Source: Ectocarpus siliculosus (taxonomy: Eukaryota; Sar; Phaeophyceae; Ectocarpales; Ectocarpaceae). From it: DNA of 64,000 bases. The DNA is taken from NCBI GenBank assembly GCA_000310025.1, contig FN648528.1:109381-173380 (forward strand). Direction: 5' to 3'. The translations under genes and the position numbers were made by a program. Shown here one piece after another: positions 14,771 to 57,074 of the stretch; position 1 is the stretch's first letter; the number at the start of each line of letters is the position of its first letter. The notes below the pieces were generated by a model that saw only the letters and a list, made by a program, of their open reading frames with translations, was not told the origin of the DNA and did no database searches.

Positions 14771-17700
14771 TTATTCAGGCCTGCCGGTCCTCCCCCTTCT
14801 GTTCCCCGACAGGGGTGTCATGTTCGAGGCAGCAGTTCCCCTGCCCTGATTGGTGCCCCTTTCACGATTGGCGCTGCCATCACGGCCGTTCCGCCCCCCA
14901 CGCGACCCCCCATCGGCGCTGCTTCCTCCTCTCGAGCTCGATCCGCCACCGGCGGCGCTAGCGCCAGATCCGCTGCCGCCCACGTAGACGACGTCTTGGG
15001 AGGCGTTATTGGGGCCTGCTCCTCCGCTGCTGCCATTCTTGCTTTCATCCTGGAGGCGTGTTTACGGCCGGGTGAAGACGAGAGACCCGGGAGAATGCCC
15101 ACCACACGGTCAAAGCTCATACATATCATTAGTAAGTTGATGGGGGTTCATTACTGTTTCTCGGAAGGGATCCATCCAAACTCAGGTCAGTTCAGTATCC
15201 GGCAGGGATCACTCGCCCTTCATCACTACTGCAAAGATTGCAACGAATATGCTCCGGGAAAACCCTTCGAACCGATAGTCTTTGTGTGATATTCGATGAA
15301 GTGTACAACACATTCTAAAGCCGAATACAGCAACAACGTGTTGGAGCGGGAGAACGTGCACAGAACGTGATACTACACTTGTATTGCCCGGTTACCTTGC
15401 ACCAACATGCGTTCGTACAAGAAGTAACCGTGTGGGAAGTGTTCGTGCTACTCACATCGTCAATTTCGTCGAGGGCAACCAGGAGGGGGCCGCTCTGAAC
15501 CTTGCGGCCGATCTCTTCCAGAAATTTCTTGAACACCTCCTGGAAGAAGATAACCTTCTTGTTCATGTCTCGCCTCGGATTCCCTGTGAACGTTCGCATC
15601 GCCGCATGTTCCTCGTCCCAGACGCTCATAAGGTTTGCACCCAGGGCGATCACGGGAAGGCCATAGAAGTGGCTCAACGCGCTGAATTGATTGAACTCAG
15701 GCACCTTCGCGAGGATCGAAGGCCAGGTATCGGGTTGGCCGGGCGTGCCGGCCATGCCAGCGAGGCCCTGGATCTTGTGCATGTCCTGGCTGATTTCACG
15801 TAGCTGGCTTTCGATTCGAGTCATCCAGTATCTGAAGTTCTTTGCCGGCTTGCTCCTGATGTGCGTGTACCTGTTGACCGAAATTCCCAGAATGCGAGGG
15901 TTATCCTTTGGAATCTGCACGTCTCGAGCCAGCCCGGCGTGGCTGGCCGTATTGCGGGCGTTGAACCGCGTGGTGACCCAGTCTGCCATGATGAAGGGAA
16001 GAGCCTTGATGGCGTTGTGGCAGTACGTGTCCGGCGTGCACGGCAGGAAGAGGTAGTCGGACGTCAGGATGATGTGCATGTTGAGCTTGCCCCTGTGGGG
16101 ATTGCAGTCGACGAGGACGATGTCTGCCCCGCAACTGCGCGCGGTCAACGCCATGAGCTTATTCCATGCACCGGGAGCTATTGCCTCGACCAGGAGGTTG
16201 GTCCCGTAGGCGACCGTGACTTTTTGCTCGTAGTCAACCAGACCCTCGTGTCCGGGTAGGAGAAATAGCCCCCCTTGGCAGCCTTCAGGCAACGGAATCT
16301 TGGTGACGTCAGCTGGACCCCACTGCACCATTGGACTATCGCTGCCAGCAGGCTCAAGAACCGGACGCAAAGCGTCTTTGATGTTGTTCTTCATGTTTGG
16401 GCGGCCCGGCACCTGAAGAACTCGTCCGAACGACGTCGACGGGGTACGTGGGAGGGGCGTCAGTTTCTGCTCGGTACAAAAACATGCTCCGCTGGCGAAA
16501 AGCGGCAGTGTCGGCGGAGAAGGCTTGTTTGCCACGCTTCACGTTGGCATGATGGCAGATGCATGTTGGAAATTTAGACCGACGTGGTGTTCAAGCTTTG
16601 TTGGCTGCTGGATGGATGTTGCGGGAGTCATCCCAACATGGTCCTCTTTCACTCAAACAGCGTAAAACGTCGTGGCTTTCCAAGAAATCTAGCTTCCCGC
16701 TGCAACTGTTTAACGGGGATACCAATCCACAAAGACAAGCCCAAGAAAAATATCCAGTCTACGAGACCTGAGAGGGGCATGCGTCATGCATCGTCTCGTA
16801 CGGGGTTGATCAACGCGGGATACGAAGGAAAGAAGCCCTTGACAGAGTTCTGAGCGTGTTTCGGTGAAAACCGTGACAAAAACAACACCAACAGCGACAA
16901 CGATGTCAAAGAAGATACAAACGCATAAACTTCAAGCTCATCACCTCCCCCCTCTGTCGGTTCTGTTAAATACTGCGAGGAGACGTTCTTTCGCACAAAT
17001 TGGCATGCTTCCTCCGAGGAGTCACAGTGGCAGGGGAGGAATGGTCACGTTGTTAATTCATGATTCTCGCAGCTGACCCACATCATGCCGAAAGCTGCAC
17101 GGCCGCAACTCTCTGCGATACCGCACACCGCATTCGACGCCACACGCCACACCAAGAGTTATTTTCGCGGCTGGAGGTGGGTCGCATAGTACGGCCCTGT
17201 GGTATTGTAGTGTCATACCAACGCCCTCCACAAGCACCGTACCATACATCAGGCGCTACTGCTGTAGTGTCCCACCGGGGCACGTTATCAATTCATCCTG
17301 TTTGTGGTGTTTTCCGAGATTGTTTGGTATGTACCGCGTACCACAGGCGGCAATCCTGCGGCGCGCAGTCTCTCTCTCTCTACCCCCATTCACTCGGAGA
17401 TATGAGTGAAGATTCTCTTCGCCGTTCATTAGACTATTATGGTATGGTCTAAGGACCGTACGCACATGCAATCGTGGTCGTGGACGGCGGGGAGCCTCGC
17501 GTATAGTTCGCCGCCACCAAAGTTAGCTGCTGTAACCCAACAGCAAGCGCAAGCACGCACCTACCTGGTGATTGAAGAAGAGGTCGTAATTTTCCTCGCC
17601 GGCCTCTGTTTCCTCGGATGTCTGCTTATTCTTCACCCATTCTTTCAAGAGCAGGTAGGAAAGGTCGCACTGTGGGTCCGCGTCTACCAGGAGGACACGC

Positions 17701-17885
17701 TTCCCCTTCAAGGCAAGGGTGAAGCCGAGGGAATGAGTGGTGGTGGTCTTCGCGACGCCTCCCTTCCGATTCCATATTGCCATGGTCTTGAAGCTGTGGC
17801 TCTCCCCTAGGTGCGGTAGGTCTTCGGAAGGCACGGGGTACACGGCCTTGACTGGTCGCTCGAATCGGGGGAATACAGGAGGCAT
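14771..17885 (-). CDS. ParA/Soj-like ATPase with RGG-rich tail, copy A (three exons, open)
   Basis: Exons are 17885-17565, 16466-15456 and 15049-14771. Donors are GTAGGT and GTGAGT, both introns are phase 0, and the product is 536 residues. Exon 1 carries the deviant Walker A motif KGGVAKTT (residues 41-48) and VDADPQCDLS (67-76). Exon 2 carries the Walker B-like DIVLVDCNP (222-230), then TSDYLFLPCTP and LGISVNRY, the usual order in ParA/Soj ATPases. Exon 3 adds a Gly/Ser/Arg tail with RGG and GRG motifs, typical of RNA-binding disordered regions and not of bacterial ParA. Known ParA proteins are ATP-dependent dimers that position plasmids, chromosomes or protein clusters. The role here is unknown. 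No ParB-like partner is visible in the window. Met-35, just before the P-loop, is an alternative start. An organellar MinD seems unlikely because the DADPQ motif is Soj-type and no transit peptide is obvious. Confidence 0.8.
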
Positions 17886-20375: not shown

Positions 20376-22046
20376 TTACACTCCTAGGAGCAAGAGGCGG
20401 TTCCTTAGAAACTTCACCGCACCCAAACTCTTTGTAAGAATGTCAGCTTTCTGCGCGTCAGACTCAAGGTACTCCACTGCGACTACCTTGTCTTCGATAA
20501 GCGACCTTACTTGATGATACTTGATGTCAACGTGCTTCGTACGCGGCGTGATCTTGTTGTTTACACTAGTCGAGATCGCGCCAGTGTTGTCCTCGAACAT
20601 CCTCGTCGCCTCCTCTTGCATCTGGTTGATGGTGCTCAGAAGGTGACGGTAGTGGATGATCATCGTACATGCCTTGGACATCGCGACATATTCTGCTTCC
20701 ACCGAGGAGAAGGCCACCACCGTTTCCTTAACTGACCTCCAGTCCACCGGTCCACCTGCCAGAAACAAAACAACGCCTGTAGTCGAGCGACGGTCATCTC
20801 CATCGCCTGCAAAGTCGGAATCAACATATGCTGTCAGTAGGTTTCCTTGTTCAGCGTCTTCCCTGTACATTATCCCAATGGAGCTCGTTCCTTTCAGGTA
20901 CCGGAGCGGTCGCTTCAGTTTGGCCATCGCCTTCGGGCCTGGTTTGGCCATGCTCCTGGTAAGCACCAACACCGTGTGGGCGATCTCCGGCCTCGATCCC
21001 CTGCATAGGTAAAGAACCGAACCCGTGGCTGATCTGAACATCGTGGTGTCCTCTGGCGACAGTGCTTCTTCCTCCACGACACTTATCGTGCCAACCTCAG
21101 CCGGAGTCTTCGTCGGATGCGAGTCGGCCATTCCAAACTTAGCTAGCACCGCCTTGGTGTACACTTCCTGCGTCAAGCGAATCGTTCCTGCTTGAACGTT
21201 GCGATCAACGGCCATTCCTAGGATAAACCTCGCATCCCCGAGGTCCACCGTATCAAAGCGTTCCTTCAGCTGTTCGATGATCGTCGACACTTGATTCTTT
21301 TCGGTTCCAGTGAACAGGATGTTATCCACGTAAACTAGGAGAATTACTTCGCCCGCGTTCAAGATGTACAGACACGGATCCGCCGTGCTTTGCACGAATC
21401 CGATCTCCAGCAAATACAACACGTGAAATGTCCCGTTCCATCCCTTCGGAGATAGACGTAAACCGTACAGCCATGCCTTGAGTTTCCAGACCTGTTTAGC
21501 TTGTTGCGACGAGCACTCGAACCCCTTTGGAGGTATGACGTAGATGGGTTCCGCATCTTCGGGAATTCTGGCATGCAGGAAAGCCGTCTTGATGTCAGCT
21601 TGCTTGAGAACTAGACCGTGGTGAGCAGCAACAGCAATCAACAGATGCACAGATTCCATAGACGCCACTGGCGCTGCCTTGTCCTTTCCCGTATCGGCTT
21701 CATGAAATCCTTGTACCACTACACGACTCTTCGGGCGAACCGGCACACCATCTTGGTTGTATTTCCATTTATAGATGAACTTAGACGGAATCAGTTGAAC
21801 ACCCTGGGGCGGGTCAACCCAGTCAAACACGTCATGCTCGTACAGCGACTGTCCTTCGTCGCTCATGCTTGCTTGCCAACGTTTTGAGTCTAGTCCGCTT
21901 ATCGCTTCGTTATAGTTGGTGTTAGGATGATCCGAACTGGGGGTAGCTTGTCGCAAGACGTGTGTTGAATAGGGTGTCGGCAACTCGGCGAACTCGCGCC
22001 AAGGAGGAAAGATGTGCTGGGCTTGTTGTATAGACTTCTTCTTCAC
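20376..22046 (-). pseudogene. Copia reverse transcriptase-RNase H
   Basis: An open frame of about 556 codons. It has the Copia RT motifs QADIKTAFLHA (residues 149-159), LYGLRLSPKGW and YVDN (239-242), where the usual box is YVDD. RNase H follows: DSDFAGD, the SSVEAEYVA motif and KHVDIKYH near the C-terminus. It lacks an in-frame ATG at its 5' end, as expected for part of a polyprotein. Changing the second Asp of YVDD normally disables RT, so the copy is probably inactive even apart from the gag damage. Confidence 0.85.
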
Positions 22047-22054
22047 ATGAAAAA

Positions 22055-22110
22055 CATGGACTCACATGAACACATGAACACATGAACACATGGACACATG
22101 GACAGACATG
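22055..22110. repeat. Short tandem repeat ACATGAAC
   Basis: Five to six units of ACATGAAC/ACATGGAC at the 5' end of the RT frame, where the normal integrase-RT linker stops. It may mark the breakpoint with the inserted sequence. Confidence 0.7.
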
Positions 22111-22530
22111 AACTGCACGCACGCGTGCACGCACCACCATGAGGGGGCGACGCAGTATACAACAGGGGTACCTTGCACACCCTGGAAATACATTCCACGT
22201 ACCACACAATCCTACAACCACTTGGCATTGCTACAAGTATATCTATCAGCCCCCCTGCTTGTGACCATGCCATGTCTTTTTCGATCCTCAAGAACTCCAA
22301 AACACAAGAAAATAAACTCAGAAACTCAACTCAACTCCAGAACAATAGCCTCACTGGCTAGACATCAATACCCATCCCCGGTCAAATCAGATATAATTTT
22401 TCGATCTTCAGTGAACTAATTGCCCCCCAGCCTAGAACACCATCCATTGAGAAAAACCATAGGCAAAAATGCAAAATATTGCCACCCTAGTTGTTTGATC
22501 GCACACAAAATAAACCCAAACATAAAAATA

Positions 22531-23415
22531 TTAATCCATACTCATTACGAAGTTACGATGAAACTCGAAATTTCCCACGTTAAGTGCCTTCGTGAGGAAG
22601 TCAGCATGTTGATACGCCGATTCCACGTGAAAAATCGAAATCTCCTTCCTGCGTACCAAATCCCTGATAAAGTGGTGCCTTACGTCGATATGCTTCGAGT
22701 TACTGTTGCTAATTGGGTTCTGTGCCAACTGAATAGCCCCCTGGTTATCCTCGAATACCGGAATACACGGCATACCGGCTTCTGGCAACATGAAACGCCA
22801 TACTTGCCTCAGAAACAACACTTCCTTCATCACATCCGCAAGGGAGACATAATCCGCCTCTGTCGTGCTTAACGTAACGCACTTCTGCGTCCTTGAAAAC
22901 CAAGAAATACATCCCCCCCCACACATCACCAACCCTCCTGACACAGACCTCCTATCGGCAGCCTTACTTGCATAGTCTGCGTCTGCGAACACCTCCATGC
23001 TCAACCCTGCTACACTACCCCTCCTGAATGTAATACCCAAGTCACTAGTCCTTACCACATACCCCAAAATACCAAGACCTGCTCTCCAATGAATTTCTTT
23101 GGAAGAAGCACACTACCGTGCTACCGCTCTCACTGCGTTCGCGATATCTGGCCTCGTTTGCGTTGCCAGCCACATCAATGATCCTATCAGCTCACGAAAA
23201 GGCCTTGATACCACTTCTTCATCTTGGTCAAACTCTGAAAGCTTCAACCCTACAGGAAGAGGAATTTCCTTCCCGCACTCTACCCCAAACTCCATCCCCA
23301 ACTCTTCAGCGTACGTCTGCTTCGAGGTCTTCAAAGTCCCTGCATCCCAATTTTCCAAGAATAAAATCTCCTCTACCACCTGCTCCCTCAGGTTGTGATC
23401 GCTGTTCACAACCAA
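22531..23415 (-). pseudogene. Second Copia fragment: RT C-terminus and RNase H
   Basis: Two frames (23415-23113 and 23067-22531) read the end of RT (FRELIGSLMWLATQTRPDI) and then RNase H (ADADYASK, STTEADYVS, KHIDVRHHFIRD). A frame break lies between them. The sequence differs clearly from the RNase H at 20376-22046, so it is another family. The RT active site, integrase and LTRs are missing, so it is a truncated relic inside the first element. Confidence 0.8.
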
Positions 23416-23467
23416 ACATCCTGTGAAAACCCCGAAAATAAAATCCTACTCGTTCAGGCTCGACCTC

Positions 23468-24016
23468 TTACTCAAAAAGTCCAAACACAAAGCCGAAGCA
23501 CCACAAACCAAAGCCAAAACAATGAGAACACGAAATAAGAAAAGTCACACCATTGGTCACACGAAGTATTTTTGCCGGCCCATCAACCCCAGCGCTTTCA
23601 TCCATCCCTCCTGCCACTGCTTCTTCCCCGCGGTAGCCACCCTCGCCTCTGCCGCGGCCACCCTTTTCTGCTGGCATCGCCGCGGCTCGGGCTTCATCAG
23701 GTGCCACGTATCCGCCTGGTTGGGGTGTGTGCAGCTGTCTCTCCGGAGGGATTGACTCGGCAGTGCAGGGGAGATGGCGCATCCGAAAGGGAAAGGTAAA
23801 GGCAAAATCAGTCACCCCAAGCGTCAATTCAGCACGTGGCACTGCTGGGGAGAATAGCTTGCAATACGCCCCCTGTTCTGCGCAGCAGTGATCGTTATCT
23901 TTCGCATTCTGTACGACATCATGGTTACCTATCAAATCGAACGCCAATCTACGACTGACGTTAATTACTCCTCTTTCGCAAAAGTGACACAACGATTCTT
24001 GCGATTTGTCTGACAA
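23468..24016 (-). other. Uncharacterised frame beside the second Copia fragment
   Basis: About 180 codons with a Gly/Arg-rich middle. It could be a remnant of the gag or spacer region of the second element. No zinc knuckle is convincing and I assign no function. Confidence 0.25.
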
Positions 24017-24481
24017 GGTTAATTATTCCTCGGTCACGCAAACAACAATGTTGGATCCATGTTAGAGCTTACACAGCTGTGTTTCTGATCAACAACCCAA
24101 CACATCTTCTTACTGGTGTACAACCACTGCGCTGTTTTCGTGCATACAGTGTTCTGGTACGAAATGGAGATCATTTCCATGTATTCCTGTCGGTTACACA
24201 GACCCCTGACCAAATTTCCAAGTGTATCCCCCTACAACTCCTACCGCTAGACATGCAACAGACTCCTGTTCGTAACACGCAACTCATTGTCGGTAGAGGG
24301 TACAAAGATTCATGACGCCTTCGCATATCCCGTTATCGACGTGAACGCAAAAATAATGAGTCGGAGATCAATCTCTGTATTTTAACACGAAAGGGACAAA
24401 ATATTCCCATCAACTTCAAAGCACTCAAGAAGGTATATGCAGCAGGTTGGTTAGGATTCGCTGACACTCTCATCTAATCTT

Positions 24482-24620
24482 CAGTCTCTGTGGGTGACTG
24501 GCAACCTTACGTGGCGTAGTAGCCATACAACCTCGCAGTTTTGTGGGTGACTGGCAACCTTACGTGACGCAATATCCATTTAACCTCGCAGTTTTGTGTG
24601 GGTAACTGGCAACCTTACGT
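24482..24620. repeat. Three tandem ~54-bp units
   Basis: Each unit contains GGGTGACTGGCAACCTTACG (GGGTAACTGG in the third) followed by CCTCGCAGTT. It lies in the non-Copia spacer 24017-24845, which otherwise holds nothing I recognise. Confidence 0.85.
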
Positions 24621-24845
24621 AGAATAGAAGGCCCTTTGATGGGGTCTACTGCTGTACCTCTCAAGAAAAACATGTGCAAGATGATGACGCATACGTATGC
24701 AGAACTCAACAAGGTGTGCTGTAGGTTTATCGGAGCACACCCAAACGAAATCGACGAAGACCATTCAACATCCGAAATTGGCTCTCAAAAACCTGTACTC
24801 TAACCTGGACATCGCCACTAGAATCGAACACACCCGTAAATGGGG

Positions 24846-25199
24846 CTACATGTAATAGTCTACAGGACTGACACGGATGGCGTCCTTAGGGGGTAAGACT
24901 TCCCTGGTTTCCTCCCCCGGGGTGTTGGTCCTTCGCATTGCCCGCGCGAAGGACTCAAAGAGACGGTCCTCCAACGATCGTGGCTGGTCTTCAGGTTGCG
25001 GGTCTAACGCTGTTCCAGCCGGCCGAGCATGCCGGGGATCGCCTCCATCGGGGGGCTTGTCCACGCTCTCTGATGCGGGACGCTTCTCTTCGGTAAACTT
25101 GATTTTTTCTTGTACTCCCTTCTCCACTTCCTCTTTGATGTGCGCCGATAATGCTTGGCGGTCCTCTTCAGTTAAGCTGCTGAGGTCGAGGGCTTCCAT
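24846..25199 (-). CDS. Small ORF following the integrase (117 aa), unknown
   Basis: It starts 12 nt after the integrase stop with MEALDLSSLTEEDRQALSAH and is rich in Glu and Lys, with a helical, coiled-coil-like N-terminal third. Charged and hydrophilic, it resembles no RT. It may be a frameshifted continuation of the polyprotein or part of a separate element. Function unknown. Confidence 0.35.
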   Translation of the reverse strand: MEALDLSSLTEEDRQALSAHIKEEVEKGVQEKIKFTEEKRPASESVDKPPDGGDPRHARPAGTALDPQPEDQPRSLEDRLFESFARAMRRTNTPGEETREVLPPKDAIRVSPVDYYM

Positions 25200-25210
25200 G
25201 ATCTACTTCT

Positions 25211-26902
25211 CTAGCCGAACCCTTTTAGAGCTAACCTCACCTCGGGATCCCGTGTGATATCACACGCTAGGTCGGAAGGCACGTAGCCTACCTCACCGGG
25301 GCGACCCGCCCCGATGTTTCCGAGTTCGTCGCCGGTCAGCATAGCATGTTCGATCCGCTCGTACGCCTCCTCCGTCGTATGCAGATTCATCCTATCCGGT
25401 GCATTGGAGACCCTGCCGCTCCGACGTAGGTTCGAGTCCTCCATTTGGGGTCCCGATGGCGTTGGCGATACTTTTTTTTCTTCTGCTGTTTTGTTTTCTT
25501 CGTCGTTAGTGTCCACCGTGTCCGGTAAATAGATGGTGGTGGGAGTCATCTCTGAGAACGGGTCGTACCCGTACTCGGGTTTGACCACGTCGCGAGTCTC
25601 TTTCTCACGAAAGGACACCTCAGCGGAGTTGGTGATCTTGAGGAGCTCCGCCGGTTCCCACAGCCGGTACGTCCTATTCTTGGTGTTGTACCCCACATGG
25701 TACATTTTCTTTGCCCTTGCTGACAGCTTGGTGTCTCGGAATCTCGCTTCTTCATGCTTAAAAGCTACCGAGCCCCATTCGTGGATGTGCGACATGTCAC
25801 CTAGCGGTTTTCCCTCCCATACCTCAAGTGGGGCTTTTCCGCCCAGAACGTCCGTAGGTGTGCGATTCTTGAGGTAGATAGCTGTTTGGAATGCTTCGCC
25901 CCACAGATGACCTGGAAGGTGCGGTGCTCCCAGGAGTAGCTTGCGCGCCGTTCCGATGATGGTGCCAAATCCACGTTCGGCGATGGCGTTCCCCTGCGGG
26001 ACGTAGGGAGGGCTAGTCTCGAGCTTAATTCCCATGGACTCACACAACGCTTGGAACCTGCCCTTGAACTCTCCTCCGCCATCGCAGTGCACCTTGCCGA
26101 TGCAGGTCCCCAAAGGATCCGCTTCGTTCTGGATAAGCTCTTGGAGCGACTCCGCCACCCCATCTTTCGTCTTCAGGAGAAAGCCAAACCTCATGCGAGA
26201 GAAGTCATCAGTAAACATAACGGCACTCTGGCAACCGCCGGGGGACTTGACAGGGTGCGGCCCCCACACATCGGCGCTCAGAATCTCAAGCCGAGTCGTG
26301 GCTCGAGTGCGATTCGACGGGGGGTGGCTACTTTTCTTGCTGTCGCCAACCGCGCAAACCCCGCAGTCACCTGGTTCGATGTTCCGGTTGAACTTCACTC
26401 CGGTTGTCGCTTTGTCCGCCAGCTGCTGTAGAGCACGTGGATGGCAATGACGCATTCTTCGATGCCACATATCAGCGTCGACCTTGGTGCGGTACACCTC
26501 GGCGGCGTCAAGATTGACGTCGTCGATGATGACGTTCACGACGTACATCCGCCGCACCGCCGTCGAGATGGGCGGGGTCGACAGCAGATCACACATCACC
26601 CCCTTCTCGGCTAAAGCTCCAACCGACAAGATGTTAGCCCCTAGGTTGCGGACCAGCAGAACTTCCACCGCTACCGGTACCACCATGTTCTGATCATTCC
26701 GAACTCCAAATTTTAGCGTGCCTTTCTTGGTTGCATTTGAGTTACCACAGGACCCGATGATACGCACGGCGCAGTCCATCGGATCACGAACATGTTTGGA
26801 CAGGCGGGACTCCGTGCAGACCATGTGGCTAGAAGCGGCAGAATCGATGTATACAGTCGTGTCTACAACAGCGGAGGGATTCGCCTGTTCCACTTGAAAC
26901 AC
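25211..26902 (-). pseudogene. Copia protease-integrase
   Basis: About 563 codons. The aspartic protease site is at residues 20-24 (DSAAS). The integrase zinc-binding His/His/Cys/Cys region falls at about 147-183. The catalytic core has Asp-211 (SADVWGP), Asp-274 (HCDGGGEF) and Glu-309 (AERGFG), the expected DDE triad. The 5' end begins without ATG exactly where MITE copy 1 interrupts the reading frame. The frame stops before RT, so the polyprotein is broken. Confidence 0.85.
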
Positions 26903-26921
26903 GTTGGTGTACGTGACATAC

Positions 26922-27861
26922 TATAGGGTATCCACTATGGATTGACGCGGAATTTTGACCTTTGAGGATTGACGCCAACATAAAGTGACGGTTGAGGGTT
27001 TTGACGGGAAAAAATTCGCACCGCGTGTGCCCGTTGACACGTGAGAGGTGAAAAAAAAAAAATGGTGGAGGCTTGGTGGAGGTAGAGTTCAAGGTTGGTT
27101 CGGGCTGCCACCCAGGGTCGACATTCCGAAGCGAAGACTCACACCCCCAGGCTCCCAGGAGACTAGGTGTACCCCTTCGCCTCATCCCGCCGACCTTCCC
27201 TCCTTTGCCGCGGCGACTTTTCCCAGGCGTCAAACTGCGACTTCCCAGGCGTCAAACTGCCGTTCGTTGCTGATGAGTAAGGCAGCTGCTCGCTGCACTG
27301 CTGTGTATATACCGATGTCACTGCGGCAGCAGAGCACCGAACGCCGTGAGGGGGCGGGCGAAATGCACCTACTGACTGGCAAAGTCCGTGTACCCTGCCT
27401 TACTCCTCTCCATGTGCTCCCTTCGAGGGCGAGACTCCCCAATCACTCCCCTGCCTATGCCCCTTTTTGCTGCTGAAAGCCCGTGCGCAATCGCGACGGC
27501 GCATCTACCGAACGCGCGCGCCGAACACGCGCGTCTGGCCACTTGGCCGCCGTGAGAACTGCCGAGACGCGTGGGTGCAGGACCGCTAGGAGCAATCAGT
27601 ATAGGCATGGCCAATGTGTTCGCTGCTGACCGCGCACAGCAGACCGCAGCAGAGCAAGCGTGTGTGAGCCACAGTCTGGCGATGTTTGAAGCGTCAATCT
27701 TTTCGCGTCGGTTTAAGTTTGGGTGAAATTTAATTTTGACGCTTCCTCACAAAAATTTCGCCGTCAGAGTTTGCCCCCCAAAAAGCGGCGCAACCTCTTC
27801 ACGTCAAAACTTCCTGAAATGTCAATCTTTCACGTCATTTCAACAACACGTGGATTCCCTC
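26922..27861. mobile_element. MITE copy 1 (940 bp) inside the Copia gag-protease frame
   Basis: Ends are TATAGGGTATCCAC and GTGGATTCCCTC, imperfect inverted repeats. The target duplication is TAC (26919-26921 and 27862-27864). Removing the element and one TAC restores an open frame from gag into protease, which fixes both boundaries. No transposase is encoded. Internal sequence matches MITE copy 2 in reverse orientation. It also has repeated words such as TTGACGCGGAATTTTGACC near the left end. Confidence 0.85.
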
Positions 27862-27954
27862 TACTCTGTTCCATCAGACGCCTTCTCCGCCTGAAGGTGA
27901 GTCTCATCTGCCACAAGCGCCGCCTGCACCGGCACATCACCAGCGGCGCACTCA

Positions 27955-29360
27955 TCACACAGTACCGCAGCAAGCACATCCTGCACCTGCACAACTCCAG
28001 CAGCGCGCTCCTCTGGCTGCGCCGCACCAGGCACCTTCTGCACCTACCTGCGGGTTGTCGGCGGCGCGGGTTTCCGGCAGCGCCGCAGCAGGTGCCTCCT
28101 GCACCCGCATGTAGTCAGCAGGCTCCGTCTGCACCTGCGAGTCATCTCCGATAACAATTGCGAAGTCCTCCAGCTCGCTGCTGGATCCCTCGATCCGCGT
28201 AAACCACGCCTGCGTGGTCGACTCCTGCGTGACATGAGCAGCCTGTTCCTTGGCTTCTTCTGCCTCCTGCGAAAGGCGAAGCGGGCAGTTGTGCCACCCG
28301 TGCTCTTTGGAGTTGTGGCAGTACCTGCACAAGCCCTTCGAGTTTTGACCATTATCCCGGCCCCTTCCTCGACCGTTGCCACCGGAAACTTGGCTACCGC
28401 GACCATTGCCGCGTCCGCCTTGCGCATTTCCCGCGCTGTCTCCGTGTGTCGTGGCACCTCCGTTGTTCCCGTTCGACGAACCGCCGCCCGTCGAATCGTT
28501 CGTAGTTTGGCCGCCATTTCTTCGACGACCACGTCCGCCACGTCCGCCACGCCCCCCTTGCTTGCGGAAAGCACGGGCTCCTCCGTGCGTGACAGTGTTC
28601 AATACCCGATCATGGCTGCCTGCCCCGTCAGCGCGGCCAGAGTCTTTCCCCCGGATTCGCATTGCGTGAAATGTTGTAGCACGGAGGGCGAGTACTTCGA
28701 AATCAACCGTACCATCAGCCGACCTCTGCGACTCACACAGCAACGCAGTCTTCAGTTCGCCGTAGTGACTGTCCGGAAGAGCGTCGTGCAAAGCGTTGGA
28801 CAGACGCGAGTCGACGACAACATCGCCGAGAGAACCCAACTCGGCAGAAATGCGGCGCAACTCCTGGATTGCGCGCGACGGATCAAAATATTCGTCGGCT
28901 GCTGTGACGGCGACGGATGCCAGTTGGGCGTGCAGCTGCTTCATCCGATACGGACCCGCCACCATGTATGTACTTCTTGTCTAGCGCCACAAAGGCAGCA
29001 CGACCATCCCCATACTCAGCCTCTCCAATCGGCCCGTACCTCTGTACCACCTGTGATGCCGCGCGGGAGAACCCTCCTGCGCCGTCGGACGTCGACATAT
29101 ATAAGAAGCCGCATGTACAGCTCGCCATTTCTCTCTGCGAATTTCTCCATCGCAGTGGCATGCGCCGTCCGTGCATCCGGGGTTTCATCTCCCGTCAGAT
29201 CTTCAGGGGGTTGTTCTTTTCCCGACATTATCTTTCCGAGCCCAGCCTTATGCATCAAGACCCGTGTGAGAGTGACCCATCCAGGGAAGCTCGCATCTTC
29301 ACCATCAAAAGGCACAAACCCACGTTGCATTGGATTTGTGGTGGGAGCTGCGGACGCCAT
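27955..29360 (-). pseudogene. Copia gag, frameshifted
   Basis: It starts at the ATG at 29360 (MASAAPTTNPMQRGFVPFDG) and continues in other frames after breaks near 29095 and 28975. The middle reads RMKQLHAQLASVAVTAADEY, a typical Copia gag block. A Gly/Arg/Asn-rich stretch then leads to a zinc knuckle, CRYCHNSKEHGWHNC, spaced CX2CX5HX4C. At least two frameshifts make it non-functional as written. Confidence 0.8.
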
Positions 29361-29916: not shown

Positions 29917-31644
29917 GGGGACACGGCGCAGTGTCTATTGACATTTCAGGAAGTTTTGACGTGACGAGGTTACGCCGCGTTTTTGGAGGCAAACTCTGAC
30001 GGCGAAATTTTTGTGAAAAAGCGTCAAAACTTAAAACCGACGCGAAAAGATTGACACTTCAAATGTCGCCAGACTGTGTGTGGCTCACACACGCTTGCTC
30101 TGTGCTCTGTTACCATCACCAAATCACGAAAGGAGCGCGGTCAGCAGCGAACACATTGGCCATGCATACTGATTGCTCCTAGCGGTCCTGCACACACACG
30201 TCTCGGCAGTTCTCACGGCGGCCCAGTGGCCGGACTCGCGTGTTCGGCGCGCGCGTTCGGTAGATGAGCCATCGCGATTGCGCACCGGCTTTCAGCAGCA
30301 AAAAGGGGCATAGGCAGTAATCGGGGGAGTCCCGCCCTCGAAGGGAGCACATATAGAGGATTAAGGGAGGGCACACGGACTTGGCCAGTCAGTAGGTGCG
30401 TTTCGCCCACCCCCTCACGGGGTTCGGTGCTCTGCTGCCGCAGTGACATCGGTACACAGCAGTACAGCGAGCAGCTGCCTCACTCAGCAACGGCAGTTTG
30501 ACGCCTGGGAAGTGGCCGCGGCAAAAGAGGGAAGGTCGGCGGGATGAGGCGGAGGAGTACACCTAGTCTCCTGGGAGCCTGGGAGTGTGAGTCTTCGCTT
30601 CAGCATGTCGTCCCTGGGTGGCATCCCGAACCAACCCGGGGTCGTGAACACATGACCGGCGTTTAACGCGTCAACTCTACATCGCCAATTTTTTTTTTCC
30701 CTCCCACGTGCCAACGGGCACACGCGGTGCGATTTTTTTTCCCGTCAAAACCCTCAACGGGTTACTTAATGTTGGCGTCAATCCTCAAAGGTCAAAATTC
30801 CGCGTCAATCCATAGTGGATACCCTATATTATACCGCTAGAAACGCCACCCGGCCCGAAAGCCTTTCGACGTACGTAGATAAGCAAAGCCAGCTGCTCTG
30901 TTTAGTCTATATGCCTGCCGGCAACGGCATCTCGTTCTCGAAGATCTGCTCCAAGGTCTGTCGCCGCCAAACGACATGCAGCTCCCCCGCGGAGTCAAGG
31001 AGCACCTGCCCAGCAGGTCAAGCGGGACGAAGGCGTTTGTGTGAGGCAGCTTCGCCAGAGGCCGAAAGAGAAAGAAGGTCGACTCAAGACCGTAGAATTC
31101 ACGATTCGTAGACATGGGGGCGGGGGGGCGCATCATGTCCATCACAACATAGTAACCCCCGTAGATCAGCACTCTGCCGAGCACCCCAAACAAAAGGAGG
31201 AAGCGGAAAGGGAGGCCCAGGGGTGGAAGGGTGTGGGGAAATGAGATACACAATACGTGGTTGGGAGAGGGCAAACACAAGCAAGCCTGGGAAATGGTCG
31301 ACCGAGAGGTGCGTCGGTGGTAGATGGGGGCGCGGCGATTACTCACGCTTGACCACATTTACGAACCAGAGCACGCACGGCGTTAATCCCCGCGCAGAGC
31401 CAAGTGAAAACGGTCATACCATGTTTTCATTTATTCGTTGAAGCAAGTCACGTCGAAACACCACTACACCAGGGTTCTCGGCAGTCTATAGAAACGCGGT
31501 CATGTAACTCTACATCGTCAAAGCCCTCTTCTTGCGCAGACAGATGTCAGGGCTTTCGACCAAAAATTATCCGAAAACGCGCAAAGGCTACCCCTGACAC
31601 CCAAATTACTGCGCCAGGGCTTTCGGTCTTCTGAGCAAAGGACG

Positions 31645-31730
31645 CCATGCCATAGCCATAGCCAAAGCCATGCAGCCAAAGCCATAGCGAAAGCCAAAAC
31701 CAAAGCCAAAGCCAAAGCTAAAGGCCAATT
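31645..31730. repeat. GCCAAA/GCCATA hexanucleotide array in a lysA intron
   Basis: An imperfect hexamer array directly after the donor of the penultimate lysA exon (minus strand). The counterpart in the right copy is 59810-59880. Translation gives meaningless Leu/Ala repeats. Confidence 0.8.
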
Positions 31731-33144
31731 CCATTCGTGTTGTACCTCTGGCGCCTCCGGGAAGGAGTTGTAGTTCTTGGCGCTCATGCCGGCCACGTAG
31801 GCGCCGCAACCCTCCACCACCACCAAGTCCCCTGTCATCGGCCCGCGTGATTCATGTTTGTCATGTTTGTCATACAAATGCCGGACATCGGTAATCGAGC
31901 AACCACGTGCAACGGTTGCGCCAAAGACGAACACGGTAAGGGTGAGGGAGTCGGAACGCGACGGGGGGTGGCGAGCGCGCAAAGGAAAGGGGAGGGGGGG
32001 GGGGTTCGCGAGTGGTAAGTGAAGTTGAATCCCAATTTTTCGACAGCAGTGCCCCTTTTGAACCATTCAATTCGCCTGTTAGCAGCAAGTGACCAAAAAT
32101 ATGCGGCGTAAATTGCTTGGACGAAAACGTCGAAAGTGGAGGGAGTACCACGAATGGCATCATCTTCTGAGAGTAATCACAATTTCGCGCCACCGATCCC
32201 TCCTTCTCCCACCCCCGCCTCCAATATGTAGACGATACAGCAGTCCCGCATGGCAGTGACTGAACTCACCGATCTCCGCCTTGGCTAGAGTTCGGCGCTC
32301 GATCTCCGAAGCCGCCCCCGACACTGGCGTCAACAGATCTCCGGACTCGCAGCAGTGCCCGACGACCACGTACTCGGCGATTTCACCACCGCCTTCCCCC
32401 TGAGAGAAGGGGCACCGCAGGGGAGATGATGAGGGGGTGGGGGAAGGGCATGTTTGTCACTTGAGTTGGTCTCTTGACCTCTGAAAAACAACACGCAGGT
32501 TCCCCTGCTAAAAAGAGGCAAATCGAAAAACTAACAATGCAAAACGACGGGTAAACTTGAAACGAACGGGCTCAGCAAAAGACCGGTGCCCCTAAACAAT
32601 GGTAAAAAAGTACATCCCACTTGACCTCGCGGTGCTTGCAGAAAAAGAACGTCAAAATAGCAAAGGTGGTGAATGAACCCAAGGCAAAAAAAAAAAAAAG
32701 TCCCCTGCGGAGAGCATGCCCGATGTTCAAGCAAAACCAGAACAAGAGCCGTCCAACACTACCATTTCGGAGAGGTCCCCTTGCTTGACACACCTCCGCG
32801 GGTACGACGACGATGGGGTGGAGGGCGCCGTAGAGTGACGGCCGGAGGAGCTCCGTCATCCCGGCGTCCAGCTTGATGAACTCGTAGCCGCCGCTGCCCG
32901 TGCTCACCAGGTCCTGCGCCGTGCAGACGAGGCTACCAGCATTGGCGACAAGGAAAATCCCGGGCTCGATCTCCAGCTTGAGCTTCCGCCCGGTCTCTTC
33001 GGCGAAGGCCTCGAAGTCGCCCATCACGGGGGCACCGCTGGTCTGCAGGTCGGTCGACTGCTCTCCCGACATTCGGCCCACCCTGGGTGGAGTAGAAGGG
33101 TAAGAAGAGGTTGCAAGGGTACCTCACATAGGGAGCTGGAGAGT

Positions 33145-33210
33145 TGCAGATTTCGAGATTTCGAGAATTCGAGAATTCGAGAGTTCGAGCTTTCGAGCTT
33201 TTCGAGAGAG
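33145..33210. repeat. TTCGAGAA-type microsatellite in a lysA intron
   Basis: Seven to eight units of an 8-9-bp TTCGAG-containing repeat. The counterpart in the right copy (61330-61402) has one more unit, GCGTACGAGCTTTCGAG. A (CAG)n run follows at about 33288-33308. Confidence 0.8.
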
Positions 33211-33683
33211 AGTGAGGGGGGAGAGACAGACACACATATACAGAGCGTTCCTGAAACCTCACATTCGGTAGCAGCAACAAGAACAACAGCAGCAGCAGCA
33301 GCAGCAGACACAAGGCATGTGCAAAATACCGGGGGGAGCAAATGAGAAATCAACAACACATCTTCACCTTGTAGCCGCCTCCCAAGTTCAGCGTGGTCAC
33401 GGTGGGGAACTGTCGCACGATGTCCAAGCTCATGCCGGACACCTGCACCCAGAAAAACGGCATTGCACCAGCAGCCAAGGGATCGACATCGCACGACCAG
33501 CTTGGACCAGGATTCCACTAGAGGATTCCCATACAATTGTAGCCCATGAACTTGGCGGAACGTTACCACGCAACGCTGGCTACTATACTGTCCGCCTTCT
33601 TTGCCTTCATCCTTATAGCAACCGTCACAGGAAAAGAAAAAAAAAAAGTTCCGTCACGACGAAGGGCAACTGGATTGATGCAT

Positions 33684-34105: not shown

Positions 34106-36585
34106 GTTGTTGTTGTTGTTGTCTTCACATTAAAAAACCGTTCCGATCTCTCTCTACCCAGTACCTTCGTATGTCCGTACTGATCCAACACTCGACGCGG
34201 TCGATTCCCGTGGTCACAGGTTAACTTACCCTAAAAAGGTACACTCAAATAAACTGGCCCCGAGGGGTCCGCAAGTCAATAGATATCAACGACAGATATT
34301 CTGGGATCCTCCACTCCCTCTTCGCGCTATGCGGGGTATCAACTGAGACTAGCAGTCACTATCTGTCATGGGCCGGAGAGAAAGAGGTACACCCCCTTGG
34401 TTCAATCTTGGTACTTCACAACGCAAGCAGAGACAAGGCCATCTGGCACAGAAAAAGAGAGAAAAAAAGAGAGAAAAAAAAGAAAAAAGAGAAGAAAGAG
34501 AAAAAAAAAAGGAGAAAGAGTAAAAATGGAAACCGTAAGGAGAAGAGAAAATAAATGAAAATAAAATGAAAAAGGGCGAGGACAAAGAGGGACCAGGCCG
34601 AAAATAACAGGACGTATGAGGTAGAACAAGGCACACGGTGGAGAGACCACTAACGAACAAGCATACACGCAAACATGTCCACCAACCAGCGATACATTGT
34701 AATGGTACGAAATCACTACTACTGGTGGGGTGGTGCAATGGTGCAGCGTTGGGGGGGGGGGGAATTGGCGAAAAGAAATTCAATCCGGCACGTGTCGTGC
34801 CACTCGGTCCGTCTCTTCTCGTTTGCTTTCTTCCCTCGCCGTCTCGTCCGTCTCCTGCCCCCCTCCCGCCCCATTGGTTGTTGGCTTGTGGATTCCTTTG
34901 AGCGCTCGTTGTCGGCTGGCCTCTTCTTCCTTCTCGTGCCAGGAGGTCATGAACCTCTCAGCTCCCTGCAGCACCCCCGCATGCCACCTCCACCTTCGCG
35001 GCTTCCGTCCACCTTAACTTCCGTGCCCTGTCTTTCGGTACGGGAATTCCGAGACAACTTGGGTCGGTTTTCGTAGATCCGTGGTCGGCCCCGAATGCCT
35101 TCAGGTCGTCGAGCACACACTTCGGCCAGTTCTGTTCCTGTCCCCCCTTACGTGGCTTCTCCCCCCCCGCCAGCTCGCCGAGCATCAGTCGTTTCGGGAG
35201 TCGCCCGTCCGGCTGCCTTGCCAGTGCTCCCGCGAACAGTAGGCGTCGTTGTCGGATCGTAGCTTCAACGCTCTGGCATTCGACCCTCTCCAGCGTCTGG
35301 GCGTACGAGAGCTGCCGGTAGGTGTCTTTCTTGCGCTTGTACCCGATAACTCGAAGGAGCAGTCGGTGGTGTGTCGACCGCAGCGTCTGATAGTGGCCGC
35401 TGAGTGGTGACCATGTCATGCAGCCGTACAGCAGTGCCTCCATCGCCTCCGCCTGGAGGAGGCGGATCTTGAGTCGGAATGGCGCTTTCGGTCTGTCGAA
35501 GAGCTCCAGGCCATATCGCCTGAGGCACGCCCACGCTCCTCTGCTCCTGTAGCTGATCTCCCGGGTGAGGTCGCCATGTTCGTTGACGAGGCCACCGAGG
35601 TACCGGAACTCGGTCGTCTGGGCGATAGTCAGTGGTGGAGGAGGCGGGGGGGGCTGTGATGTTGCAGTCGGCTTGTCCTTCGCGCGCATCAGGAGGGTCT
35701 CCGTCTTCTTTTCCGACACCGTTAGCCCGAACTCTCCGAACACCTCAACGATGATGGTCATCATTCTCGCCAGTCCTTCTGCAGACCTCGATACGACGCC
35801 GGAATCATCGGCATACAGCATCCCCCATACTGCCCTCCGTACTCGGTCAAGGGGTGTCTCGTCCCCCCCCCCCCGCTTCCGTCTTCCCCTCGTCCAAGCA
35901 CACCAGATTCCGCAGAACAACATCATCCTCGCTGAATCGGATAACGACGACCTCGAGGACCTCGGCGAAGAAGATGTTGAACAGCAGTGGGGATAGCACA
36001 CATCCTTGTCGCACGCCCTGTGTGACGAAGAACCAGTCCGATAGTTCTCCGTCGTCCATGCGCACCCGGGCCCGCATTCCCTCGTGGAATTGGCGGATGA
36101 CTTTGATTAGCTTCGCGGGAATCCCGACCCTGACCAGCACCTTCCATAGCATCTCTCGGTCCACCGAAACATACGCCTTCTTCAAGTCGACGAAGCACAT
36201 GTAGAGCGGTATTTTCTTTCTCCGCCCCAGCTCCTGGAGGCGACGCACGACAAACAGCATGTCGACGGTGGATCGCCCGGGTCGAAATCCGCACTGTTCC
36301 TCCGGGAGGATGTTGTTGGCTTCGCAGAAGGCGCTTAGACGGTTGGTGATGATCTTGATAGGAACCTTGCCTACGTGAGATAGTAGCGAAATCCCCCTGT
36401 AGTTGTTACAGTTGGACCGGTCACCCTTCTTGTACAGCACCTTGATGGTTGTGTCCTTCCACTCTTGGGGGATATCTCCTCCGTTCCACACCTTGACGAG
36501 GATGGTATGGAGGTGTCTCAGGACAACGGGTTCGTCGTCATCGATCTTGAGCAATTCGGCAGGGAGGGAGTCATGGCCGCGTGCC
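34106..36585 (-). mobile_element. 5'-truncated non-LTR retrotransposon (LINE) with (CAA)n tail
   Basis: An insertion in a lysA intron, absent at 61955 in the right copy. The shared word TTGTT at both edges (34101-34105 and 36586-36590) is the likely target duplication. The 3' end on the minus strand is a (CAA)n tail, written (TTG)n at 34101-34120. RT motifs occur in two frames: [46 protein letters not shown] and [14 protein letters not shown] in the first, then LYADD and FRYLGGLVN in the second. The frame break falls at a run of C's (35867-35879). No endonuclease domain remains. A purine-rich tract (34447-34575) lies in the 3' UTR. Confidence 0.85.
34958..36585 (-). pseudogene. LINE reverse transcriptase, frameshifted
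   Basis: The fingers and palm are in 36585-35870 and the YADD box, thumb and C-terminal region in 35900-34958. The C-terminal part has GYKRKKDTYRQLSYAQTLER and further basic sequence. Complete LINE ORF2 proteins exceed 900 residues, so roughly the N-terminal half is missing. The homopolymer frameshift could be a sequencing error, but the 5' truncation is real because the flanking host sequence is contiguous. Confidence 0.8.
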
Positions 36586-37750
36586 TTGTTGGACGGACAT
36601 GTCCACATCGGCCTATGAAATTCATGAGCGGACTAGCAGCATGGCACGCCGTTACGTAAAAGAGCACAGCGCGACGCAGGGTACAAAAGAGGCGGGCACC
36701 GCAGGGCATGTGTTGCATGCTCCAGGCCCAAAGGAGTCTTCAACCTCCTCTCCATGAAAAGATTAAGATTCACAGCCAACACCACCACCACAACGACCAC
36801 GACGACGACACAGCTTCAACAGTTGGACTACAACGCACGCCTCCACCGCTGCTGTGGAGAAAGCCCGTACAAACCTTCTGTTTCACGGCCGGGTCAGATC
36901 CCGATCCGATGTGCGTGTGGATGCGGGATACGGTAAGGTCACCGCCGGCGCAGATGTCCCTCACCTCGTCCGCCCACTCGTACCAGATCCCTGCAAAAAC
37001 CAACAACTAACAGCAGAGTAAGCGACAACGAACAATGGCGACTGCAATGCCAATGGAAGGGGGCAATGACGAGCAAGGCTGCAGCTTGGGGTGCTGGACA
37101 TCACACGTTGGCCTTCCCTCATCCATGCCACCAACACCACACCGACCACCGTGGCTTGAATTTATCCTTCGTACCCCACACCCCCACCACCATCAGATCA
37201 CTGGTTTCAGCTACCACCACCACCACCCCTAGCTTCGTTTTACCCCTCGTGCCCACCAACCGCTCACCACTCACCGAAAGACGAGGAGGGGCCGCCCACA
37301 TTGGTGCTCTTGGTTCCCCCCGACCCCAGCCCCGGGTTAAACCGCACCCCGACCGAAGACCCCGGAGCCTCCTCAGCAATCTTCCGGAGCTGAGAGAGAG
37401 AGCACGCGTTGATGCCCACGCCCATCTTGAGCAGCTCCGCCGCGTCGGGGGGCAGCTCCTGCGAGCTGTTTTCGCGAGGGGGTTGTGAGGGGGGGCGAGA
37501 CTTGGCGGGATATTGTTGCTCCCTCGCCGGTGTCCGAAACGTGATCTCGCTGACAGGCGCAGCGCATGCTGCAACTAATATTCTGTCTAAACGATTTCCC
37601 TATCTTCCTTGTTATTTCCCGTAGCGACGGCAGTGCAAGCAAGGTGTTGGGTGCATCACCCAATTCCTGTCATCTCACACAAGCGCAGAAAAAAACCAAC
37701 GGCCAACGGCCACAATTTCGCCGCATTTTTGTAACCGTCAACACGAGTGA

Positions 37751-38598: not shown

Positions 38599-39753
38599 CT
38601 ATCCGTTCCCCCAGACGGTCCCCTCCCCCGGCTGTCTCGATACGATCCTACTGCCGTCTGTAAGTTTCCGTGACACTCGCCGCGAATCCTCTACATTGTT
38701 TCGCGCGTACGGCTTGTATGCATCCGGCCTCCACTTCCCTTCTCTCTGAATCACTCGTTCTGCGATGTCTCCGCCCGATGCAAGAGCCGTCGCGCCTCCA
38801 ATTCGCAACGAGTGCAACGCGTACTCCTGGGGGTTACGCCCCGACTTCGCTACCACTTCTCTGACTGCACGGAGGGCAGCAGTATACCTCACTACTCTCA
38901 CTGCTCTTCCACTACGGTACGAAGCCAACGGTGCGGAGTCAGGCAACGTCGCATGACACGATAACAGCTCCACCACAAGAGCCACCGCGCCGCCGCGTGC
39001 TCTCACACCTGACTGCGGTCCGGTGACTTCGTCTCGCGTACGAACCCGTATGTTTCCTTTCTGCTCTTGATCGGCCTTGTGCCCTCTAAACCTCATTTCG
39101 ACACGGTCTGCTCTACGATAGTGACTAAAGACTAATTGCGTCTCGCCAGCAAACAATGCTACGTCCGCCCTCGTAAGACAGTGTGCCTTATGCACCCTGC
39201 CCACATCATTCGCGAACACCTCATCAGACCGTGTGATAAAGAGATAGGACAAGCACAGACACAGCCACATCACTCTGCCCCCTTCCCCCCAGTTCCGGCT
39301 TGCGCTTTCCCCGTCCAGCAGCATACGCCAAGACACAGGCAGGCGCACACGGCGTATCGTCCCCACAGCCACGTGGTTCCTCGCAACCCCCCTTAGCGCA
39401 CATTTCAACATCGGAGACGACAAGTCTAGCTCGACAGAAGCTTCCAGCCTATGAAAATGTTGTACAGCCGTGAGTTTTCCGGATATTGTACTCGCTAGAT
39501 TACCCTCAGACTCGAAACACCAGGCTACGAAGTCTATCAACTCCCACACATGAAGGTCCCCGGCACGTTGCCCTAGGAACTTGGGCTTCTCCGTCAGCCT
39601 GCGAAACGTGCACCAAGAGTTGAAGCCTGACGTGTAAGTCCTTCTAGACGAAGACGCAACTGAGTGCTCGACGAGCTGCATGCCAAGACGTCGGTAACAA
39701 AGTCCCGTCCTGCCTGTCCCGGGTCCTGAACCTGCTGATAGCCCTGGAGCCAA
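38599..39753 (-). CDS. Tyrosine recombinase (DIRS/Ngaro/Crypton-like)
   Basis: An open frame of 384 codons. The first ATG is at 39681 (MQLVEHSVASSS), giving 360 residues. The N-terminal part has the core-binding signature SSSRRTYTSGFNSW. The catalytic domain shows Arg-175 (FITRSDEVF), His-314 and Arg-317 (HSLRIGGATALASGG), Trp-341 (EGKWRP) and the likely nucleophile Tyr-349 (AYKPYAR). This is the full R-H-R-W/H-Y set, numbered from 39753. Such enzymes insert circular or cDNA intermediates by strand exchange. The frame is complete, so the enzyme may be active. Confidence 0.88.
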   Translation of the reverse strand: MAPGLSAGSGPGTGRTGLCYRRLGMQLVEHSVASSSRRTYTSGFNSWCTFRRLTEKPKFLGQRAGDLHVWELIDFVAWCFESEGNLASTISGKLTAVQHFHRLEASVELDLSSPMLKCALRGVARNHVAVGTIRRVRLPVSWRMLLDGESASRNWGEGGRVMWLCLCLSYLFITRSDEVFANDVGRVHKAHCLTRADVALFAGETQLVFSHYRRADRVEMRFRGHKADQEQKGNIRVRTRDEVTGPQSGVRARGGAVALVVELLSCHATLPDSAPLASYRSGRAVRVVRYTAALRAVREVVAKSGRNPQEYALHSLRIGGATALASGGDIAERVIQREGKWRPDAYKPYARNNVEDSRRVSRKLTDGSRIVSRQPGEGTVWGNG

Positions 39754-39988
39754 CCTCGTGTAGACCGGCGTGCTGCCGTTCGATTTAGCCGCAGGTGCGC
39801 TGCGTGCTGGTGCGTGTCCTTGTTTTTTTTTTTCTCATTGAGATCACTTCCGCATAGACAATTCTACGGCAGGTTGACGAGTTTTTGGCATGCATCAATT
39901 GCTGTCCGGGCGTTTTTGGTCGCTTAATCGTCGATGGACGTGACGTATTCTTATAGAAGGTTTGTGTCACAGCGGCAATAAATTTGAC

Positions 39989-46200: not shown

Positions 46201-46378
46201 TCAAGGCAAGGGTGAAGCCGAGGGAATGAGTGATGGTGGTCTTCGCGACGCCTCCCTTCCGATTCCATATTGCCATGGTCTTGAAGCTGTGGCTCTCCCC
46301 TAGGTGCGGTAGGTCTTCGGAAGGCACGGGGTACACGGCCTTGACTGGTCGCTCGAATCGGGGGAATACAGGAGGCAT
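43254..46378 (-). CDS. ParA/Soj-like ATPase with RGG-rich tail, copy B (open)
   Basis: Exons are 46378-46058, 44955-43945 and 43532-43254, with the same lengths and phases as copy A (321, 1011 and 279 nt), 536 residues. All ATPase motifs are kept. Substitutions are few in the ATPase body (for example IENQ for IESQ, and GVWNEEHAEMQK for SVWDEEHAAMRT). They are more frequent in the exon 3 tail, where Asp and Glu residues have become Gly, strengthening the RGG/GRG pattern. The upstream flank is conserved only to 46601, so this copy has lost about 1.8 kb of the region found 5' of copies A and D. That may affect its expression. Confidence 0.78.
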
Positions 46379-56900: not shown

Positions 56901-57074
56901 GGCAAGGGTGAAGCCGAGGGAACGAGTGATGGTGGTCTTCGCGACGCCTCCCTTCCGATTCCATATTGCCATGGTCTTGAAGCTGTGGCTCTCCCCTAGG
57001 TGCGGTAGGTCTTCGGAAGGCACGGGGTACACGGCCTTGACTGGTCGCTCGAATCGGGGGAATACAGGAGGCAT
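53960..57074 (-). pseudogene. ParA-like ATPase copy D, frameshifted in exon 1
   Basis: Exons 57074-56756 (319 nt, not 321), 55657-54647 and 54238-53960. A 2-nt deletion in exon 1 near 56801-56803 (GTTTTCGG, where copies A and B read GTTTCCTCGG) shifts the frame after KNKQTSE. The P-loop KGGVAKTT survives, but the rest of the ATPase domain cannot be read through. Exons 2 and 3 remain open, so the damage looks recent or could be a sequence error. Confidence 0.75.

Follow-up and report, generated by a model that had tools for sequence, protein, structure and literature searches.

In the presence of ATP, ATPases of the ParA superfamily pair up as sandwich dimers, which switches their binding both to a partner and to nucleic acid or membrane. 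To our knowledge, nearly all eukaryotic proteins of this superfamily are MinD, Mrp/Nbp35 or Get3. Here, we describe a multicopy, intron-split gene predicted to encode an ATPase of a bacterial and phage ParA-like subfamily—that holding Orf317 of inovirus Pf1 and gp23 of phage SE1—in a 64,000-nucleotide stretch of the genome of Ectocarpus siliculosus (GenBank assembly GCA_000310025.1, contig FN648528.1, positions 109,381 to 173,380 of the forward strand), hereafter the window, which forms the final 64 kb of its contig.

The closest described system is the Pf1 Orf317/SE1 gp23 subfamily itself, to which the Ectocarpus protein is homologous over the whole ATPase at 27–30% identity, with the same Walker motifs and C-terminal half; but the Ectocarpus gene is nuclear, has two introns, encodes additions of 32 amino acids (aa) at the N-terminus and 92 aa at the C-terminus and has no phage or HEPN genes linked to it in the window. 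A dyad of a HEPN protein (MAE_18760 family) and a ParA/Soj-like ATPase has been described, with the ATPase postulated to be an antitoxin in the accessible part of that paper (Anantharaman et al., 2013; PMC3710099). The Ectocarpus ATPase belongs to the same subfamily as the HEPN-adjacent ATPases found here at 52 of 160 loci, but no HEPN partner was found in the window, and the HEPN proteins tested here match PF18735, possibly a different family from MAE_18760.

Among solved structures, the best sequence match is DIP2308 of Corynebacterium diphtheriae (PDB 3pg5), which is also the best fold for the model of a bacterial relative (locus L107), although identity to that relative is 19–21% and the structure was deposited as uncharacterised. 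The Soj/ParA partition ATPases of chromosomes and plasmids have the fold and Walker motifs in common with our protein, the sequence match lying mainly in the P-loop. Two Gifsy proteins are alike in being orphan and ParA-like, as compared by description only: GiPD474, a prophage ATPase giving phage resistance (accessible part of PMC12724215; motif GGVGKT, against GGV(S/A)KT here) and STM14_3218, an ATPase in a three-gene region required for an RNA-damage/RNA-repair signal (PMC9879122, likewise in its accessible part). A further paper, as far as its accessible text goes, concerns other MinD/ParA-like domains (PMC7159879). A literature search of titles and the starts of abstracts, mostly in the open literature, found no gene of this kind in algae.

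Results

Gene structure and family membership

The gene originally noticed, copy A, runs on the minus strand from 17885 to 14771 and, judged from its sequence and translation, encodes a full-length ParA/Soj-like ATPase in three exons. Its parts, in window coordinates, are:

17565..17885, minus strand: exon 1, with the N-terminal 32 aa, the deviant Walker A (KGGVAKTTT) and Walker A' (VDADPQC)
16413..17564, minus strand: intron 1, CAG/GTAGGT ... TTCTTCAG/G, phase 0; alternative acceptor 16467/16466
15456..16412, minus strand: exon 2, with the remaining ATPase part, Walker B (DIVLVDCNP) and the family-specific C-terminal half
15050..15455, minus strand: intron 2, GAT/GTGAGT ... CCTCCAG/G, phase 0
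14771..15049, minus strand: exon 3, a Gly/Ser/Arg-rich tail of 92 aa, plus stop

A profile of 79 non-redundant bacterial and phage members of the subfamily matches the Ectocarpus protein at 206.7 bits over model positions 3–340 of 346, whereas a nine-sequence profile of generic ParAs scores it at 61.4 bits, the best piece covering the P-loop only; the nine generic ParAs themselves score 66.5–76.3 bits against the family profile. The profile of a side branch of eight more divergent relatives gives 144.6 bits. In Pfam, AAA_31 (74.3 bits, cut-off 27) and CbiA (51.5 bits, cut-off 25.4) are matched, and in PHROGs a single family, phrog_164 ‘ParA-like partition protein’ (E-value 2.9e-28, 100 bits), which also matches all six relatives scanned (146–171 bits) and possibly takes in more than the subfamily treated here. 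On these profile matches, the predicted product is a member of the Pf1 Orf317/SE1 gp23 subfamily inside PHROG_164.

Alignment-based scans for relatives covered 80 of 92 viral stretches and the best 80 of 559 genome matches. With the ATPase part as query, tblastn found matches in 2417 plasmid and 72 phage records, covering at least 80% of the query at one place in 13 and 1 of them, respectively. The best relatives are ‘AAA family ATPases’ from plasmids and chromosomes of Pantoea, E. coli and Burkholderia glumae, together with gp23 of the P22-like Salmonella phage SE1, Orf317 of Pf1 and a Helicobacter prophage protein; seven relatives align across the entire ATPase at 27–30% identity. In 40 alignment columns, at least 90% of the 87 relatives agree. 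The Ectocarpus protein keeps 34 of the 40 (the VDxDxQC columns among them were part of the search pattern), including K41, K46, D68, D70 and D209 of the deviant Walker A, Walker A' and Walker B motifs; the six changed columns are F38W, H40R, N74D, F228L, F237Y and L350F. For the model of the bacterial member L107 (mean predicted local distance difference test score 92.1), the nearest solved fold is 3pg5, followed by ParA/Soj and pNOB8 ParA.

In NCBIfam, 24 models match, none at its cut-off. We rejected an ordinary MinD (27.6 bits, cut-off 212.9), an ordinary Mrp (MrpORP 16 against 450 bits, ApbC 12.1 against 348), NUBPL (Pfam NUBPL, ‘ParA’, 21.2 against 27.1 bits) and GET3/ArsA (NCBIfam 27.1 against 135 bits; Pfam ArsA 23.7 against 24.3). 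The NCBIfam models nifH (19.3 against 394 bits) and bchL (24.1 against 345) also lie below their cut-offs, and Pfam Fer4_NifH lies just above its own at the P-loop. The first-pass annotation, drawn from the sequence alone, had named an ordinary chloroplast MinD or Mrp as one outcome that would undo its proposal; the curated cut-offs for both go unreached. Over the first 33 aa, the highest 15-residue Kyte–Doolittle mean is 0.11 and no strongly hydrophobic stretch is present, which speaks weakly against a plastid-type signal. A known anti-phage system of PADLOC-DB 2.0.0 was also rejected: the Ectocarpus protein gives a short P-loop match to PDC-M28B (20.5 bits), two bacterial relatives give the same type of match (at most 35.2 bits) and the one HEPN protein scanned matches RTasHEPN weakly (12.3 bits).

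Splice sites

The motifs KGGVAKTT, VDADPQC and DIVLVDCNP follow one another in ParA order on the minus strand and are split by two phase-0 GT-AG introns, just as first annotated. Of the junctions originally proposed, the 17565 donor and the 15456/15049 pair stand, while the 16466 acceptor, which gave a product of 536 aa, probably gives way to an exon 2 start at 16412 and a predicted product of 518 aa. The acceptor TTCTTCAG/GTGCCG at 16412 yields a single continuous family-profile match (205.5 bits, model 3–340); that at 16466 inserts 18 extra residues and splits the match in two. The family alignment also favours 16412, which we judge the more likely start. We hold to it only loosely, since either acceptor keeps the reading frame and the profile totals, 206.7 against 205.0 bits, differ by just 1.7 bits.

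Copies in the window

The first-pass annotation dealt with a single gene. Searching the entire assembly (189,456,909 bases, 492 contigs) for the family and comparing the window with itself brought the total to three complete copies and a truncated one, which share the minus strand of the same contig. Besides copy A, these are:

43254..46378, minus strand: copy B, complete and open; exons 46378-46058, 44901-43945 and 43532-43254
51634..53277, minus strand: copy C, 5'-truncated; exon 2 at 53277-52321 and exon 3 at 51912-51634, the latter placed through the constant offset of an identical stretch
53960..57074, minus strand: copy D; exons 57074-56756 (frame shifted), 55603-54647 and 54238-53960

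Searches with the translated exons 1 and 2 yielded three and four matches, respectively, all on the window's contig among the best candidates scored, and no further copies were found beyond the window in the whole 189-Mb assembly. The genome has four other AAA_31 matches, of which contig C24 carries two and C16 and C27 one each; they are short, and neither exon query recovered any of them.

Copy against copy, the gene-bearing blocks are 97.2–98.6% identical, introns included, and the splice sites of copies A, B and D are alike. The gene has been amplified through recent segmental duplication. The stretches 51385-53610 and 53711-55936, 2.2 kb each, are 100% identical and flank a gap of 100 Ns (53611-53710), next to copies that differ by 1–3%; these stretches, copy C included, are perhaps an assembly duplicate. 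Comparison of the three complete copies showed one indel in 1557 exon bases, seven in 1570 alignment columns of intron and two in 287 columns of short flanks.

Genes beside the bacterial relatives

All 167 loci collected (L015-L181) have a tblastn match; for the neighbour count we used the 160 whose reading frame is no shorter than 250 aa, keeping redundancy, so that several of the viral loci among them are near-identical. At 52 of the 160, the next downstream gene belongs to one single-linkage blastp cluster and in 42 cases it overlaps the ATPase gene. HEPN_RiboL-PSP (PF18735) exceeds its cut-off in all five cluster proteins tested, and 51 of the 52 carry the motif RNx[IV]xH. These HEPN-linked loci comprise 45 of the 79 loci from genomes, 5 of the 74 viral ones and 2 of the 7 from named records; they account for 52 of the 141 loci scoring at least 100 bits against the Ectocarpus protein and none of the 19 scoring less. 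A profile search of the six nearest genes at the unlinked loci found no hidden HEPN of this kind.

A tree was built from the 87 relatives left by filters on length (320–420 aa), reach, score and redundancy. Its HEPN-labelled members group together (five changes of label, against a shuffled mean of 27.4). On this quick tree without bootstrap, the Ectocarpus protein sits at the end of a branch of 3.2, where the median is 0.36, and falls in none of the starred sets of up to half the rows; for these reasons no donor lineage is named.

Gene pairs of a ParA-like ATPase and a PF18735 HEPN protein, in most cases overlapping, are spread over many bacterial phyla and also present in inovirus Pf1 (L102-L181 and other loci). 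On a divergent side branch (L062, L067 and L176), the next gene encodes instead a non-HEPN protein of 227–239 aa, alike by eye and sharing a ‘FLDILGF’ motif, with no Pfam match at E-value 0.1; it presumably resembles a nucleotide-cyclase-like domain.

Genomic setting

A Pfam scan of eight reading frames of the window gave matches for six and none for two. The matches comprise an RVT_2 and integrase set, two RVT_1 hits (one under the cut-off) and two duplicated decarboxylase exons. We take the RVT_2/integrase frames to be copia-type and read the RVT_1 frames as those of long interspersed nuclear elements (LINE-type). Several other reading frames of the window are rich in Gly or Arg and have low complexity. 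The other features of the window are:

20376..29000 and 34958..36632, minus strand: copia-type and LINE-type retrotransposon reading frames (our assignment), between copies A and B
32572..33123 and 60752..61552, minus strand: duplicated exon of an ornithine/diaminopimelate/arginine decarboxylase-like gene
30828..33683, duplicated at 58989..61862: segment with the decarboxylase exon, its second site adjoining the copy D block
38599..39834, minus strand: reading frame of 411 aa without a Pfam match at E-value 0.01, which looks like a tyrosine recombinase from an element of the DIRS or Crypton type

The introns, the genome size, the retrotransposon reverse transcriptases and the decarboxylase exon in the window make the setting eukaryotic and nuclear. 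Bacterial contamination is rejected, since in-frame homology resumes past a 1.15-kb GT-AG intron in both open copies, and it is further contradicted by the retrotransposon reading frames on the same contig. A bacterial-type ParA-superfamily ATPase in a nuclear setting, as the first-pass annotation had it, thus agrees with the two introns, the reverse transcriptases and the decarboxylase exon.

Discussion

The explanation we favour, with about even confidence, is that the Ectocarpus gene is a captured and retained ATPase of this subfamily that acts as an ATP switch outside partition. An ancestor of the lineage would have captured a bacterial or phage gene long ago, as the long branch and two introns suggest, and the ATPase would have been kept without a linked partner. 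ATP-driven dimerisation may make the protein alternately bind and release nucleic acid or a partner protein, and this switch would control a partner—perhaps ancestrally a HEPN-type ribonuclease (RNase)—instead of moving a plasmid. The bacterial gene context makes an RNase-type or other effector the more likely partner, sooner than ParB. The basic C-terminal tail, if translated, might add weak RNA or DNA affinity. The subfamily match, the HEPN neighbour at 52 of the 160 relative loci and the dyad proposed in 2013 (accessible part of PMC3710099) likewise point to an orphan or conflict-type ParA, rather than a plasmid partition ATPase, as the likely ancestor.

Several observations weigh against this explanation. 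Copy D carries a 2-base-pair deletion that shifts the frame of exon 1. Whole-gene dN/dS (the ratio of non-synonymous to synonymous change) between copies is about 0.5 (0.46–0.55), the excess of synonymous change over the whole coding sequence of A against B falls short of significance (p = 0.15) and exon 3, with seven non-synonymous changes and one synonymous change between A and B, shows no constraint. Pfam Fer4_NifH, from another branch of the superfamily, is matched at 25.6 bits (cut-off 25), over the P-loop stretch 36–85 only. As for the HEPN connection, a neighbour from this HEPN cluster is lacking at 108 of the 160 relative loci, so that such a link is no more than possible for the ancestor of the Ectocarpus gene itself; the Ectocarpus protein scores alike against HEPN-linked and unlinked profiles (188.6 and 190.8 bits); and a profile of the 52 HEPN proteins found no HEPN among the window's unspliced reading frames of at least 25 aa (best E-value 5.1). 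Given the long branch, the lack of a starred set with the Ectocarpus protein and these equal scores, we name neither a donor nor an ancestral HEPN partner. We find it unlikely that a eukaryote captured the ATPase half of a HEPN–ParA conflict module and made of it a multicopy nuclear gene with a basic tail, whose ATP switch would restrain or deploy a host RNase, for example in antiviral defence.

The frameshift in copy D, the unconstrained exon 3, an overall dN/dS not significantly below 1 and the position of the copies among retrotransposon reading frames, close to the contig end, would all suit a captured gene that is now functionless: an insertion of long standing that chance has preserved, multiplied along with retrotransposon-rich repeats and now in decay. 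We regard this as a serious but doubtful alternative, for copies A and B are open over 518 codons and keep the catalytic residues at some 30% identity to bacteria, and the splice sites are conserved in A, B and D. Exon 2 also argues against it: comparing A with B, eight changes fall in 216 synonymous sites against eight in 741 non-synonymous sites (Fisher p = 0.014), and A compared with D shows the synonymous excess too (p = 0.041). Because this excess is seen in exon 2 but falls short of significance over the whole coding sequence of A against B and is missing from exon 3, constraint after duplication is suggested for the ATPase part and unseen for the tail. This bears on whether a nucleus-encoded RNA- or chromatin-associated ATPase might owe its main new function to the Gly/Ser/Arg tail, which we hold to be quite unlikely. 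The six RGG/GRG motifs in copy B exceed those in shuffles of the tail (P = 0.01), but the three in copy A do not exceed shuffles of its own composition (P = 0.22), changes in the tail are mainly non-synonymous and other reading frames of the window are likewise Gly- or Arg-rich and of low complexity; moreover, the DNA of exon 3, open for 92 codons, is open in other frames as well. Of the RGG-rich, nucleic-acid-binding tail originally proposed, the Gly/Ser/Arg exon is there, the RGG excess appears in one copy of the two and constraint is lacking; a nucleic-acid-binding role is possible, if weakly supported.

A domesticated partition or positioning ATPase, segregating an episome, organelle DNA or a viral genome, would account for the intact deviant ParA-type Walker motifs, the resemblance of a bacterial member's model fold to Soj and pNOB8 ParA and the PHROGs label; yet profile scores set the subfamily apart from generic ParA, and the NCBIfam partition models lie far under their cut-offs (ParA_partition 58.6 against 180 bits, RepA 49.4 against 348). 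The bacterial relatives are, besides, orphans or HEPN-linked: among listed clusters of at least three, a ParB-like neighbour occurs only beside the low-scoring loci L097-L100 (ParB_N 22.2 bits, cut-off 26.3). We therefore consider partition very unlikely, and the partition device of the first-pass annotation yields to an orphan or HEPN-linked ParA subfamily, in whose dyad form an antitoxin role has been proposed (PMC3710099, accessible part). Delivery of the gene by a DNA virus of the host seems highly improbable. Relatives do occur in phages and viral contigs, but an IMG/VR search with algal-specific peptides found no relative, a BFVD fold search with the L107 model gave four matches at E-value ≤ 0.001, of which the two that are named are phage proteins, and the only viral genes recognised among the eight window reading frames scanned were those of retroelements. 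The link to eukaryotic viruses floated in the first-pass annotation thus finds no support in either database.

Conclusions

The original observation was right, and the locus is richer than first described; its interpretation as a partition system is to be replaced by that of a captured, retained ATPase, which we prefer with the confidence stated above. A nuclear member of a phage and plasmid orphan subfamily, often tied to HEPN genes in bacteria, would add a case of a microbial mobile-element or conflict gene entering a nuclear genome, for which a comparable capture is sulfiredoxin from ParB (PMC12704722, in its accessible part). The Ectocarpus gene would also offer a concrete test case of whether such ATPases act on RNases or in the positioning of DNA.

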